Shown here piece after piece: positions 3,207 through 7,881 of a DNA stretch of 40,633 nt (its first letter is position 1; each line of letters starts with the position of its first letter). The stretch is from a virus. The notes under the pieces are model-generated. The model was not told where the DNA came from, made no database searches, and saw only the letters and a program-made list of their open reading frames with translations. The DNA lies in IMG/VR virus record IMGVR_UViG_3300017598_000604, positions 1-40,633 of that record. The stretch is one strand, 5' to 3'. Made by a program: the position numbers and the translations under genes.

Positions 3207-3865
3207 CGCGGGGGGTTTATACACACGTGCCGAGTGAGGGGCCGAAGAATGCAAAAATAATTCTGCATTTATGTGCTGACGTTGGAACGGACTCAAAACC
3301 TTATAAAGACATGGGGTATGATGTTCGTTTGATTGGTAGTGATATGGGTGTCGAAAATTATAGCCCCCTTGATAATGTTAATGTGTATGGGATTATTGCA
3401 AATCCTGTCTGCACTGAATTTAGCGTTGCTCAAGGTTTTGATAAATTCTGTAACTATGAAGAAGGCTTATTTCTTGTTCGTGAATGTCTTCGTATTATTG
3501 TTGCCTGTTCCCCTAAATTTTGGGTAATTGAAAACCCTGCTTCCGGGCGATTAAAGAAAGTTATTGGCGCGCCTCAAATGACATACGAACCTTGGGAATT
3601 TGGTAGCCCCTGGACAAAGAAAACTGGTTTATGGGGTATCTTTAACAAGCCGAAAAAAGTATACACAAAATGGGAAGATGTACCGAAAAACTCAAAACTT
3701 TATATAAGACCAAAGCGACCAAAACCATCGATAGCTTTTTTACACAAAAGCGCGCAGAATGACATTGAAGAATTTTCTTGTTTTCCGCAGGCCGTTAACG
3801 ATATGTCTTTTCGTTCGTTTTGTCCTCAAACATTTGCTTGGGCTTTTTTTATGGTGAATCAATGA
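3203..3865 (+). CDS. C5-cytosine DNA methyltransferase-like protein with a borrowed leader
   Basis: This 220-residue protein contains LHLCADVGTD (about 21-30) as a cofactor-binding motif I equivalent, NPVCTEFS (67-74) with a catalytic cysteine at 70, and ENP at 110-112. These match a compact phage class of cytosine-C5 methylases that use S-adenosylmethionine. The target-recognition region is short, so specificity cannot be read. The first 20 residues (GVYTHVPSEGPKNAK) nearly duplicate the start of the next gene's product, although the DNA has diverged at synonymous positions. The rest has codon use unlike its neighbours. This suggests the methylase body was inserted after the leader of the polymerase gene. 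Likely role: protecting phage DNA from host restriction. Confidence 0.75.
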   Translation: MTRGVYTHVPSEGPKNAKIILHLCADVGTDSKPYKDMGYDVRLIGSDMGVENYSPLDNVNVYGIIANPVCTEFSVAQGFDKFCNYEEGLFLVRECLRIIVACSPKFWVIENPASGRLKKVIGAPQMTYEPWEFGSPWTKKTGLWGIFNKPKKVYTKWEDVPKNSKLYIRPKRPKPSIAFLHKSAQNDIEEFSCFPQAVNDMSFRSFCPQTFAWAFFMVNQ

Positions 3866-5718
3866 AAGGTGTATATACACACGTTCCAAGCGAAGGGCCG
3901 AAGGATGCGAAGATTGTACTTCTCGGTGAGAGCGCGTGGATCAACGAAGTAGAAGCGGGGAGGCCGTTTGCGGGGCAGAGTGGGAATTTGCTAAAGATGT
4001 GGTGGAGTCCGTTGGGGATTAAGCGTACTGAGATGCGGTTGATGAACCTTTTTTCTTATAGGCCGCCTACACGTGAGATAGGTAGTGTGCCTGCGGAGAA
4101 GATAATTAAGGCGATTGAGGGGATTCACGCGAGGATTGCGCAGTTAAAAGATCCGCATGTGATTGTGCCGTGTGGGAATTATGCCACCTTCGCTCTCACT
4201 GGAAAGGGAAAGGTAAAGGCGCAGATTCGGAATGCGTTTGGGCAATTTACGGAGAGTGCGAGTGAAGCGGAGAAGAAAGCGGGGATTACTCAGTTGCGCG
4301 GATCGATATATAAGTATCGAGATTTGAATGGGCGTATCGTGAAAGTGATTCCGACGATTCATCCTGCTGGTGTGTTGCAAATGCCGAAGTGGGGGAAGCG
4401 AAGTATTGCGGATTGGGGGAGAATTGCGAGGGAGAGTAAGTTTCGGGAGGTAAGGGAGCCTGCGCGAGAGCATATTATTAATCCAAGTGAAGATGATATA
4501 CTGCGATTTTACTCTCAAGCGGAAGTGCATAATGAGAATGCGCAAATGAGCATAGATATAGAAACGTGGAGGAATACTTTGAGTTGTGTGGGGTTTGCGG
4601 TGAGTCCGACCTTGAGTATTACTATTCCTTGTACCGAGAAGGATAGGGGGAATTTGGGGTGGATTAATGCGCTTTGTCAAAGTGCGTGTCAGAAAGTATT
4701 GTGTAATGGGAGTTATGATGCGTATTGGCTGAATGCGTATGGGATTGGGATTAGGAACTATCTGTGGGATGTGCAGAGTATGCATCATGCGATTGATCCT
4801 GCGGAATCTCATTCGTTGGATTTTCTTGCGAGTATATATGCGGATTTCTATTGTTATTGGAAAGATGAAGCAAAAGAAGCGGAGGAGATTATTAAGTATG
4901 CGAAGGATTTGGACTCCTTGTATGTATATAATGGGCTTGATTGTTGTTATACGAGGGAGTTGGTTGATAAGTTGGATGTCGAATTAGTACGAGAGGGGAT
5001 GAAGGATTTTTACTTTCGGCATTATCAAGCGATGTTTGGGCCATTGATTTGGACGATGAGGCATGGGATTCGGGTTGATGTAGGAGAACAGAAGAAGATT
5101 GCGAAGCAGTTGAAGGGGGAATTGAAGGGGTTGCATGGGAAGTTGAATGAGTTAGCGGGGGAGGAATTGTTTGCTGTGGAGGAGAAGACTGCGTTGAGGG
5201 AGCCTACAGAAGGGGAATGGTTCGAGTTATTAAAAGGTGCGCCACCTCCGGTAGAAATACCGAAAGCGAAATACATCTCTCGTGAGGCTCGTGAGTTATT
5301 TAAAGAAAACGGTTTGACTTATATGATGAGTGGGAAGAATGCGGGGAAGATACGGTATAAAGTGAGTAAGACAAAGAAGGATTTCAGCAAGGATAAATTA
5401 TTGGAGTTCTTTTATGGAACGTTGGGGTTGCCGAAGCAATTCGAGATGCGGAAGGGGGTTAGCGGGAAGAAGCGAACGATCAGCTTGAATGAGGCTGCGT
5501 TGAGAAAATTGATGGCGAAGAGCCCGAAAGCGGTTGAGCCTGGGGGGTTGTTGCTAAGTTACAGGGAGAAGAAGAAGGAGTTGGATTATCTCAGGGGGAG
5601 TTGGGATAAGGATGGAAGAATAAGGTGTAGCTATAAGATGAATACGAGGGCGGGCCGACTTTCATCAGCGAAGAATCCTATGCGGAAGGGGTATAATTTA
5701 CAAAATTTAAAGAGGTGA
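3862..5718 (+). CDS. Uracil-DNA glycosylase-like / 3'-5' exonuclease / family A polymerase N-terminal part
   Basis: This 618-residue product has three regions. Residues 18-190 form a family 4-like uracil-DNA-glycosylase fold (GRPFAGQSGNLL at 33-44, HPAGVL at 167-172). Residues 225-365 are a proofreading exonuclease with DIE (Asp232, Glu234), NGSYD (Asp286) and YNGLD (Tyr356, Asp360). Residues 385-618 are the thumb and early palm of a family A polymerase, ending with TRAGRLSS and NLQNLKR. UDG-like domains fused to polymerase occur in SPO1-type phages. The protein stops exactly where motif A should follow, and motifs A, B and C are encoded at 7045-7881. I start at the ATG overlapping the methylase stop, because its product begins with the duplicated leader; an upstream in-frame start lies inside the methylase gene. 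Confidence 0.85.
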   Translation: MKGVYTHVPSEGPKDAKIVLLGESAWINEVEAGRPFAGQSGNLLKMWWSPLGIKRTEMRLMNLFSYRPPTREIGSVPAEKIIKAIEGIHARIAQLKDPHVIVPCGNYATFALTGKGKVKAQIRNAFGQFTESASEAEKKAGITQLRGSIYKYRDLNGRIVKVIPTIHPAGVLQMPKWGKRSIADWGRIARESKFREVREPAREHIINPSEDDILRFYSQAEVHNENAQMSIDIETWRNTLSCVGFAVSPTLSITIPCTEKDRGNLGWINALCQSACQKVLCNGSYDAYWLNAYGIGIRNYLWDVQSMHHAIDPAESHSLDFLASIYADFYCYWKDEAKEAEEIIKYAKDLDSLYVYNGLDCCYTRELVDKLDVELVREGMKDFYFRHYQAMFGPLIWTMRHGIRVDVGEQKKIAKQLKGELKGLHGKLNELAGEELFAVEEKTALREPTEGEWFELLKGAPPPVEIPKAKYISREARELFKENGLTYMMSGKNAGKIRYKVSKTKKDFSKDKLLEFFYGTLGLPKQFEMRKGVSGKKRTISLNEAALRKLMAKSPKAVEPGGLLLSYREKKKELDYLRGSWDKDGRIRCSYKMNTRAGRLSSAKNPMRKGYNLQNLKR

Positions 5719-5719
5719 A

Positions 5720-5764
5720 TTCATTTTAGTTACGTTAATTTGCGTTAACTTGCATTAAATTAAA
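5720..5764 (+). repeat. TTNNN pentanucleotide array, block A
   Basis: Immediately after the polymerase N-terminal stop, nine consecutive five-base units all begin with TT (for example TTACG, TTAAT, TTGCG, TTAAC, TTGCA). The remaining three positions vary, so this is a degenerate five-base period, not a simple copy. It ends just before the SD of the 80-residue gene. Confidence 0.75.
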
Positions 5765-5789
5765 CCATTAAATGAAAGGAGGATCAAAA

Positions 5790-6032
5790 ATGAAATACGA
5801 AAAACAATTAAAATCGAACGCAGAAATGGCTGCGGAAATTATGGGGGATTATTTAAAAGGGAAAAAAGTAAAGCCGGAGAAAGTGAAGCTTTCATCCGTT
5901 GCTGTAACGCAGTATCAAAGGTTCATGGCAACGAAAGGAGTGTTTGCTCATCTTGGGTTTAGTATTGCGAGATCAATAGCGAAGGATCGAGAGGAGTTAA
6001 AGGGAATGGTGGAACAACCGAAGTTACCATAA
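5790..6032 (+). CDS. Small helical basic protein inside the split polymerase
   Basis: I choose the second of two in-frame ATGs because AAAGGAGGATCAAAA stands directly before it. The 80-residue product is lysine/glutamate-rich and mostly helical, with no recognised motif. It is flanked on both sides by TTNNN arrays and uses A-ending codons, unlike the G-ending polymerase halves. It therefore looks like part of an inserted cassette. It could be an array-binding protein, but that rests on position alone. Confidence 0.7.
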   Translation: MKYEKQLKSNAEMAAEIMGDYLKGKKVKPEKVKLSSVAVTQYQRFMATKGVFAHLGFSIARSIAKDREELKGMVEQPKLP

Positions 6033-6033
6033 A

Positions 6034-6128
6034 TTGGTTTTTATTGCGTTGTGTTAAGTTCAGTCCGATTCAGCTATTTTGTGTTGCGTTCGTTTGCGTT
6101 TTGTTAAACTCTATTACTTTAAATTTAT
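6034..6128 (+). repeat. TTNNN pentanucleotide array, block B
   Basis: Starting one base after the stop of the 80-residue gene, 16 of 19 consecutive five-base units begin with TT. The exceptions, at 6064, 6074 and 6109, keep the register. Many units end in G (TTGCG, TTGTG, TTAAG, TTCAG), so GTTNN describes the pattern as well. The block is separated from block C by about 19 bases containing an A run and a phase shift. Confidence 0.75.
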
Positions 6129-6147
6129 TAAACAAAAAAGGATCTTT

Positions 6148-6222
6148 TTAATTTAAGTTGCTTTGGGTTGAGTTGATTTCCATTAGTTTGATTTGTGTTC
6201 CGTTGAATTAAGTTAAATTAAA
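6148..6222 (+). repeat. TTNNN pentanucleotide array, block C
   Basis: Fifteen of fifteen consecutive five-base units begin with TT (such as TTAAG, TTGCT, TTGGG, TTGAG, TTGAT). The series ends in two TTAAA units directly before the SD (AAAGGAGGAGAACC) of the RAMP-like gene, as block A also does before its gene. The sequence lacks dyad symmetry, has no spacer-repeat structure, and is not a multiple-of-three coding repeat. Confidence 0.8.
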
Positions 6223-6239
6223 AACAAAGGAGGAGAACC

Positions 6240-6770
6240 ATGAAATATTACAAATGCACGATTAAAGGAAACGCACCTTATTATTATACGAAACCAACCA
6301 AAGAGGAAAAAGTACCGAAAACCGAAGAACAAAAGAAAGCATCGGCTTTGAGGAAAGTTTACAATAACGGGGGTTTGCTTATTCCGAATAGGCAAATTAA
6401 AAGAGCAATGATGGAAGCAGCGAGAACAGCAAAGATGAAAACGGAACGATCCGCTGCGAGGACGGTTAAATTGTTTTCAACTAATCTATTGCAGATACAA
6501 CCACAGGAAATTTACATTCAACCGGAGATGGCGATAGAAGACATTATTCTCGAAGAGTGGTTCATACATGAAGCGGGGATTTGGAGTTATATTGCGAGAG
6601 TTGATGAATGGGAATTGACTTTCGATGTTGTTTTCAGTGAAGTGTTTGAACCTTCTTTCATTAAAGAGGCTTTGGAGAATGCAGGATTATTAAGCTGTAT
6701 TGGCGGTAGGAGGGGGCTTGGCAATGGGGCTTTTGATGTTATAAGTTTCGAGGAAGGGGATGATAGGTGA
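6240..6770 (+). CDS. RAMP/Cas7-like phage protein
   Basis: This 176-residue protein starts YKCTIKGNAPYYY, a position where relatives have a KGTSPLL-type strand. It continues with ALRKVYNNGGLLIPNRQIKR and a basic helix, and ends with an AGLLSCIGGRRGLGNGAFDV glycine-rich loop. I associate this order with a common family of uncharacterised phage early proteins whose fold is reminiscent of CRISPR Cas7/RAMP RNA-binding subunits; that assignment is from memory and would need a profile search. The SD is very strong. It lies between the polymerase halves, immediately after a 15-unit TTNNN array, and has A-rich codon use unlike the polymerase. A nucleic-acid-binding role is plausible inference. Confidence 0.6.
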   Translation: MKYYKCTIKGNAPYYYTKPTKEEKVPKTEEQKKASALRKVYNNGGLLIPNRQIKRAMMEAARTAKMKTERSAARTVKLFSTNLLQIQPQEIYIQPEMAIEDIILEEWFIHEAGIWSYIARVDEWELTFDVVFSEVFEPSFIKEALENAGLLSCIGGRRGLGNGAFDVISFEEGDDR

Positions 6771-7048
6771 ATAAAATGGGCGATTCAAAAGAGGTATTTC
6801 AAGCGTTGAAGAAATCACACCACAGATACAAAGATAAGTGTCTAAAAGAGAATATGAATACTCTTAATGGGTTAGGGATCGAGTATGAGGTGTTTAACCT
6901 TGGGTATCATTTGAAGGTGAAGTTGCTTGGGAATGTGATTGACTTTTGGCCGAGCACTAATAAGTGGATGTGGGATAAGAAGACTTATCACGGGAATGCG
7001 GGGATGTTGATTAAGTGGGTTAATCGATATTTGGGGGAAGAAAGGTGA
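6767..7048 (+). CDS. Phage-conserved small protein with an IDFWPSTNKW motif
   Basis: The 93-residue product has a charged helical N-terminus, then LGIEYEVFNLGYHLKV and VIDFWPSTNKWMW, a combination seen in many small phage proteins of unknown role. It begins at a GTG overlapping the previous stop (SD GAGGAAGGGG); an ATG nine bases later is an alternative. Its codon use (TTG, GGG, AAG) is closer to the polymerase than to the two preceding genes, so the foreign cassette may end just upstream. Its stop overlaps the start of the polymerase catalytic gene (GTGA), implying coupled translation. Confidence 0.7.
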   Translation: MNKMGDSKEVFQALKKSHHRYKDKCLKENMNTLNGLGIEYEVFNLGYHLKVKLLGNVIDFWPSTNKWMWDKKTYHGNAGMLIKWVNRYLGEER

Positions 7049-7881
7049 AGAGTATCCGGGAAACATTCCTACCCGATGAAGGGTGTGTGTTTGTGCGAGT
7101 GGATCTTTCGCAGATAGAAGATCGTGTGTGCAAGATGTATTGCGGGACTGAGCGCATGGTAGAGTTAGCGAATCGGAAGCCGGATGTATATGATGCACAC
7201 GTGGATAATGCGGCTATGATATTTAAGAAAGCGCACGCGGAGATTACTAAGGATGAGAGGTATTTGGGGAAGCGGACAACGCATGGTGCGCAGCGGGGGT
7301 TAAGGGGTGCGAAGTTAAGTGAGAATGTTTCAAAGGACACGAAGGGGGGGTTATTCATTCATCCGAGACAGTGTGATCGGTTACTTGATTCTTATCTTGA
7401 TGCGATGTGGGAGGTTAGAGATATCTACTTCCCGTGGGTTGAGAGTGTGTTAAGGAATGTAGGTGTGCTTGAGACTTCTTGGGGGAGGAGGTTGGATCTA
7501 CGTGGGTTGCGGATCGACGACGACCTATATCGGGAAGCGTATTCGTACTATATGCAAGCTGAGTGTGCGGATTGGACAAATCAATATGGGTTTATTCCTG
7601 GGAGTCATTACATGATGGGGAGGTACGGGAAGCCGCTGAATGCGCAGGTTCATGATGAGATTATTGCGAGTTTGCCTGTGCAAGATACGTATGAATATGC
7701 CGATTTCATCGTGAAGTGTTTTGAGCAGTATCGGGAGATACCGAGAGGGAGTGGGAATTATTTGTGTGTGCCTGCGAGTGTGACGGTGGGGAGAAGTTGG
7801 GGGGATAAGGAGGGAGTGGAGTTTAAGAGTTTGCCGCATCGGGATGATTTTTTTAATGAACTGGTGAAAAGGGGGGTTTGA
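7045..7881 (+). CDS. Family A DNA polymerase, catalytic C-terminal part (separate gene)
   Basis: This 278-residue product resumes exactly where the 3862-5718 gene stops. Motif A is VDLSQIEDR with catalytic Asp20. Motif B spans 72-90, with Arg72, Lys76, His80 and Arg84 where E. coli Pol I has Arg754, Lys758, Phe762 and Tyr766. Motif C is QVHDEI with catalytic Asp204. Together the two genes give a complete UDG-exonuclease-polymerase of ordinary layout. Translation starts at a GTG behind GGGGGAAGAAAG, overlapping the upstream stop, so this is an independent cistron. The His at the 762-like position and the loss of the tyrosine at the 766-like position are noteworthy. Confidence 0.85.
   Translation: MKSIRETFLPDEGCVFVRVDLSQIEDRVCKMYCGTERMVELANRKPDVYDAHVDNAAMIFKKAHAEITKDERYLGKRTTHGAQRGLRGAKLSENVSKDTKGGLFIHPRQCDRLLDSYLDAMWEVRDIYFPWVESVLRNVGVLETSWGRRLDLRGLRIDDDLYREAYSYYMQAECADWTNQYGFIPGSHYMMGRYGKPLNAQVHDEIIASLPVQDTYEYADFIVKCFEQYREIPRGSGNYLCVPASVTVGRSWGDKEGVEFKSLPHRDDFFNELVKRGV

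Follow-up and report, generated by a model that had tools for sequence, protein, structure and literature searches.

The split polymerase locus

The stretch of DNA analysed here (the window) is the complete IMG/VR virus record IMGVR_UViG_3300017598_000604, 40,633 bases in length. Replication genes on the plus strand occupy the left part of the window, and a family A DNA polymerase (PolA) is encoded there in two ORFs, in agreement with the split polymerase proposed in a first-pass annotation (Table 1). ctMlz233 (GenBank accession number MW202489) carries a single polymerase of 779 aa. The N-terminal part from the window aligned to residues 1 to 530 of this protein and the C-terminal part from residue 546 onward, in the same order. 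A related primase/helicase is found directly 3' of the intact polymerase gene in ctMlz233. Since the two parts align in order to one gene, it was concluded that three arrays of five-base units, a vipr gene and two small ORFs separate what is a single polymerase gene elsewhere. Vipr is an early-branching RAMP protein of VIPR, a system described in a 2026 preprint (bioRxiv 2026.04.26.720920; PMC13142463).

Table 1. Features of the split polymerase locus in the window
Feature	Position	Strand	Remarks
PolA N-terminal part	3862..5718	+	family 4 UDG, 3'-5' exonuclease, thumb; ends ...NLQNLKR
Array 1 (TTNNN x9), putative vrRNA repeat tract	5720..5764	+	NN = CA TA AC AA GC AA GC AA AA; ends TTAAATTAAA
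86-aa ORF	5772..6032	+	between arrays 1 and 2; 80 aa from inner ATG; possible accessory gene
Array 2 (15 units), putative vrRNA tract	6034..6108	+	NN = GG TT GC GT AA CA CG CA AT GT GC CG GC TT AA
Array 3 (15 units), putative vrRNA tract	6148..6222	+	NN = AA AA GC GG GA GA CC AG GA GT CC GA AA AA AA
vipr homologue (176 aa)	6240..6770	+	RAMP, Csm3/Cas7 fold; probable array-binding protein
93-aa ORF	6767..7048	+	overlaps vipr gene end; possible accessory (vap) gene; matches phrog_27571 (function unknown)
PolA C-terminal part	7045..7881	+	palm/fingers; GTG start overlaps preceding stop; begins SIRETFLPDEG; resumes exactly at N-part end

The two neighbouring proteins had been given earlier as 176 and 80 residues; the first size is correct and the second is reached only by counting the small ORF from its inner ATG. 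No relatives of the 86-aa ORF were found, and P0003 and P0005 used as single-protein queries against IMG/VR found none either. No vap gene was recognisable in the window locus, both small adjacent ORFs being without relatives in other VIPR loci. Pfam, NCBIfam and PADLOC scans of the neighbouring ORFs detected no cas genes, and an Rfam scan of the window gave 0 matches.

Pentamer arrays in the window

A recount confirmed that 40 of 43 five-base units start with TT in three TTNNN blocks (5720-5764, 9 units; 6034-6128, 19 units; 6148-6222, 15 units). The run scores of blocks 1 to 3 are 9, 10 and 15, the next-best run in the 40.6 kb window scores 6, and no comparable run was found in the window at periods other than 5. 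Both statistical checks suggested by the first-pass annotation gave a clear signal. In dinucleotide-preserving shuffles (10,000 per spacer) the highest run scores were 6, 8 and 8, so that 0 of 10,000 reached the observed score of any block (p ≤ 1e-4 per block). TT pairs are enriched at lags 5 and 10, with 37 and 36 recurrences versus 4 to 17 at other lags.

Units 7 and 9 of array 2 are imperfect, and on its 3' side this array is followed by four degenerate units (6109-6128) which may be a tail and not part of the array. The units are not identical copies, and identical repeats of the CRISPR type are absent. T is found at position 1 in 38 of 39 units and at position 2 likewise in 38 of 39, while positions 3 and 4 are close to full entropy (1.79 bits). 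Position 5 is G in 18, A in 10, T in 10 and C in 1 of the 39 units; the earlier remark that many units end in G therefore holds weakly, A and T also being common. Array 3 has the same end as array 1, and arrays run right up to the ribosome-binding sites in front of the 86-aa ORF and vipr. In pseudoknot-free folding, the arrays with their 3' flanks folded no better than shuffled sequences, and no conserved structured 3' tail was evident on the window arrays.

Related array loci and cultured phages

We scanned IMG/VR with DNA patterns alone, (TTNNN)11TT and then (TTNNG)9, and obtained 231 loci (232 with the window). The majority of the 231 consist of tandem repeats, runs of T or repeats inside coding sequence. 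Diverse non-coding TTNNG/N arrays, with GTT fixed and two bases variable, are present in 48 of the 232 loci (window included), often several per locus. A homologue of the 176-aa protein is encoded in 37 of these 48 loci versus 0 of the 184 others (Fisher p 2e-33). In at least 3 of the 11 diverse-array loci lacking vipr the arrays lie close to the end of the contig or stretch, so the gene may have been cut off in some of them. In the Vipr-bearing loci all 94 arrays are within 2 kb of vipr (88 within 1 kb), 87 are on the same strand and 81 are downstream of the gene. In 89 arrays of the GTT type, the anchor bases T, T and G have frequencies of 97, 99 and 88%, and the entropy is 1.93 bits at position 3 and 1.95 bits at position 4. 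An array scan of genome contigs gave 23 matches, almost all of them low-diversity tandem repeats, with a Vipr homologue in 0, and these contigs were therefore not taken as a guide to the host.

Two arrangements differ from the common one. The TTNNG arrays in L046 and L231 are opposite in strand to vipr, unlike those in all other loci. In L104, L170 and L189, GTTNN arrays follow one another head to tail with a TCGG-type separator, giving several guides per spacer with changing phase.

Family members in cultured phages were found by protein and not by array. They occur in Felix O1-like phages including wV8 and SUSP1; in Mycobacterium phages Quico and LittleE; in Gordonia phages Trine, ODay, UmaThurman and MakoManhole; in Pseudomonas phages LESphi2 and Medea1; and in Vibrio phage 1.266. 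The vipr loci of cultured phages contain period-5 arrays with GGC, GGT or GCA anchors. A motif-blind test (information at period 5 versus shuffles) gave, in all 11 loci, a z score between 6.0 and 14.9 on one or both sides of vipr, above 6 in 10 of them, while 0 of 35 control gene flanks from the same loci exceeded 6 (maximum 3.1). Across phages, such arrays are strictly associated with vipr genes. The search for a five-base phase in related phages proposed by the first-pass annotation thus did find period-5 arrays beside homologues of the 176-residue protein, and a simple DNA pattern is able to find VIPR loci without a protein search.

In wV8 (L263), repeats annotated as 'DR_4' (4768-4825 and 6161-6218) adjoin the GGTNN arrays and are probably shared vrRNA tails. 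In LittleE (L265, 4980-6142) and ODay (L270, 4980-5609), vipr and its arrays lie among tail genes like a movable cassette, on the opposite strand in LittleE.

The 176-aa Vipr homologue

A family profile built without the window detected the 176-aa protein with an E value of 9e-17 among 10,174 ORFs, as the sole match among the 158 ORFs of the window. In a profile search of PDB, the family profile matched entry 36pp, 'SUSP1 Vipr protein' (E 4.4e-41), and for this reason the array-associated family was identified as Vipr. The 176-aa protein itself shows low identity to SUSP1 Vipr (33% over 70 residues, E 0.001 in a single comparison). Its AlphaFold2 model has a pLDDT of 85.5 and a pTM of 0.82. 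Among the Foldseek matches listed, nearly all at the top are RAMP subunits from CRISPR systems (Csm3, type VII Cas7); VIA-align superposed the model on chain I of 9g9g (Csm3-type) with Z 11.7 and rmsd 4.1 over 161 residues. The entry 36pp was absent among the best 50 Foldseek matches listed (library to 8 April 2026), the match to it being one of sequence profile. We conclude that the 176-aa protein is a Vipr homologue with a RAMP fold, and it probably binds the array RNA.

Proposed function and anchor variation

In VIPR, the guide RNAs (vrRNAs) contain 9 to 16 YNNGG repeats in which NN specify the DNA target, one target base being skipped from each dinucleotide to the next; Vipr co-purifies with its array RNAs, and the system is used against competing phages and satellites (PMC13142463). 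We consider it very likely that the window carries a divergent VIPR system, with each of the three arrays forming the repeat tract of one vrRNA and with the 176-aa protein as its Vipr. What is new here is a variant with a divergent anchor of an already known system, and the earlier statement that no phage element had been described in these terms is superseded by VIPR. The first-pass annotation had also suggested an RNA wrapped by a multimeric protein, a part for which the RAMP-like neighbour could serve. This suggestion fits best among its proposals, with the Vipr homology in its favour, and binding would follow from that homology.

Judging from its homologue, each RNA would be covered by a row of Vipr subunits, one for every five bases, and these would hold the fixed bases, UU plus the preceding D (G, A or U). 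The two variable bases of each unit would then be presented for pairing with one strand of the DNA target, where a base would be skipped from one pair to the next. Once bound, the complexes would keep phages, satellites or prophages that compete with this phage from being transcribed. For the window phage we infer that array RNAs are transcribed, processed and bound, that the skip rule holds and that there are targets. Several observations weaken the VIPR reading: the window anchor is not GGY, targets of arrays 2 and 3 were not found with a 1-nt skip, a structured 3' tail is not evident and a vap gene is not recognisable, and the protein has low identity to SUSP1 Vipr and the longest branch in the Vipr tree.

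G at unit position 5 has a frequency of about 0.45 in the window, the lowest of all loci, followed by L229 (0.63) and L010 (0.70). C is nearly absent from this position both in the window (1/39, p 0.001 versus the genome's C frequency at third codon positions) and in L229 (1/99). In our reading, the G-UU anchor has loosened to D-UU here. On a tree of 43 Vipr proteins the anchor has to switch five times between the GG type and the GTT type, and at least two of these switches are forced by well-supported branches; the sampling favours the GTT type because the IMG/VR loci were found by a GTT-type pattern. The window protein falls close to the SUSP1 group, a placement that is unsupported. In its fixed part the VIPR code is evidently not universal, as GGC, GGT, GCA, GTT and relaxed D-UU anchors are found beside related Vipr proteins. 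This diversity makes anchor reading by Vipr directly testable and puts natural orthogonal versions on offer.

The long branch and the low G at position 5, together with the two imperfect units within array 2 and the targets not found, could also indicate a decaying VIPR remnant with an eroding array code, a drifting protein and no present function. We regard this as improbable. Positions 1 and 2 have kept T almost throughout and only position 5 is relaxed, still avoiding C; L229 has the same relaxed pattern; and the vipr ORF is intact with a confidently predicted fold.

Target search and alternative decoding

IMG/VR was scanned under a 1-nt skip with one exact pattern covering 10 units of array 3 and with three seeds of 8 units each taken from arrays 2 and 3. 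These 16- to 20-base gapped patterns gave no extended match for arrays 2 and 3, and extension of 42 seed matches stayed at chance level. In a target search among the collected loci with skips of 0 to 3 nt, no array stood out; an apparent excess at skip 1 is mostly due to a few arrays whose windows overlap. An array in L133 (1894-2033, minus strand) has overlapping 10-unit windows that, read with a 1-nt skip, agree in 18 of 20 bases with minus-strand sequence of L064/L077 at about 4571. This match may be due to chance in AT-rich DNA.

We also considered a recoded variant in which only UU is fixed and the other three bases of each unit serve as guide, and the target would be one unbroken run read three bases at a time. 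Decoded in this manner, arrays 2 and 3 give open and codon-like sequences (array 2, GLAVKQRQIVARALK; array 3, NKAGEDPSDVPEKKK). The codon-likeness of the decoded triplets reached p 0.026 in a pooled-letter permutation but did not exceed what column composition gives (p 0.28). Comparison of the contiguous decoded sequences with phages (tblastn and blastn) gave nothing above chance, and the best blastn pieces span the artificial join. The strong depletion of C at the fifth base counts against triplet reading, which we judge to be quite improbable.

Variable bases in sibling phages

The siblings L082 and L155 are 96 to 98% identical in the DNA flanking their arrays and 85% in the vipr gene region. 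The fixed bases of their arrays agree at 106 of 108 positions, but the guide dinucleotides at only 13 of 48, which is about chance (hand count, leaving out conserved terminal units). The flanks and the anchor are kept while NN are replaced, and this pair shows best that the variable bases carry information. For the window itself, the search turned up no close sibling to compare. The variable bases of the window arrays are probably guide sequence for DNA targets.

The sibling comparison also bears on an autoregulatory leader RNA, by which the RAMP-like protein would only coat its own messages at UU-spaced sites, in a TRAP-like manner, and the variable bases would be uninformative. The position of the arrays next to the two ribosome-binding sites and a protein that is probably an RNA binder would suit such a leader. 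However, complete replacement of the middle bases beside well-kept flanks points to selection for change and not to neutral filler, arrays are also found downstream of vipr (81/94), and the use of NN as guide has been shown experimentally for a close homologue (PMC13142463). A leader function alone is therefore very unlikely. That the arrays mark an origin, or a site of ssDNA loading or recombination, beside the polymerase is hardly tenable: the window arrays do lie within replication genes, but elsewhere the arrays track vipr even among tail genes (LittleE, ODay) and not replication genes, and for the roles as origin, ssDNA-loading site or transcription element (promoter) raised in the first-pass annotation we found no support.

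Comparison with known systems

TRAP binds (G/U)AG repeats, and its triplets placed two bases apart have the same five-base period as the window arrays. The protein folds are unrelated and the triplet is D-UU in the window versus NAG in TRAP. The arrays were not assigned to TRAP, as the 176-aa protein is a RAMP and the triplet is D-UU. We know of no conserved or selected sequence in TRAP spacers.

The Vipr homologue resembles the Csm3/Cas7 backbone subunits of type III-A and type VII CRISPR effectors in fold and, probably, in forming a filament on RNA. In contrast to these effectors, the window has no cas operon, CRISPR repeats or spacers, and its period is five bases versus six. A class 1 CRISPR-Cas system was rejected on the lack of cas genes among the neighbouring ORFs scanned and of identical repeats. 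VIPR has been proposed as a CRISPR ancestor.

Seven VIPR types have been distinguished, with 'GGY/NN motifs, or a related consensus' (PMC13142463). The window locus differs from type II (the SUSP1/P. fulva clade) as follows: it lacks an obvious structured tail, whereas type II has a conserved 3' tail with a pseudoknot; it is inserted in a split PolA; its accessory ORFs are unrelated to those in the loci examined; and its anchor is D-UU/NN and not GGY, although the preprint allows a related consensus. Because of this anchor the window was not filed under type II. It shares with this type a phage RAMP protein of about 20 kDa, arrays that adjoin vipr, an intergenic location, a fixed anchor combined with a variable dinucleotide, and array lengths (9, 15 and 15 units) within the VIPR range of 9 to 16.
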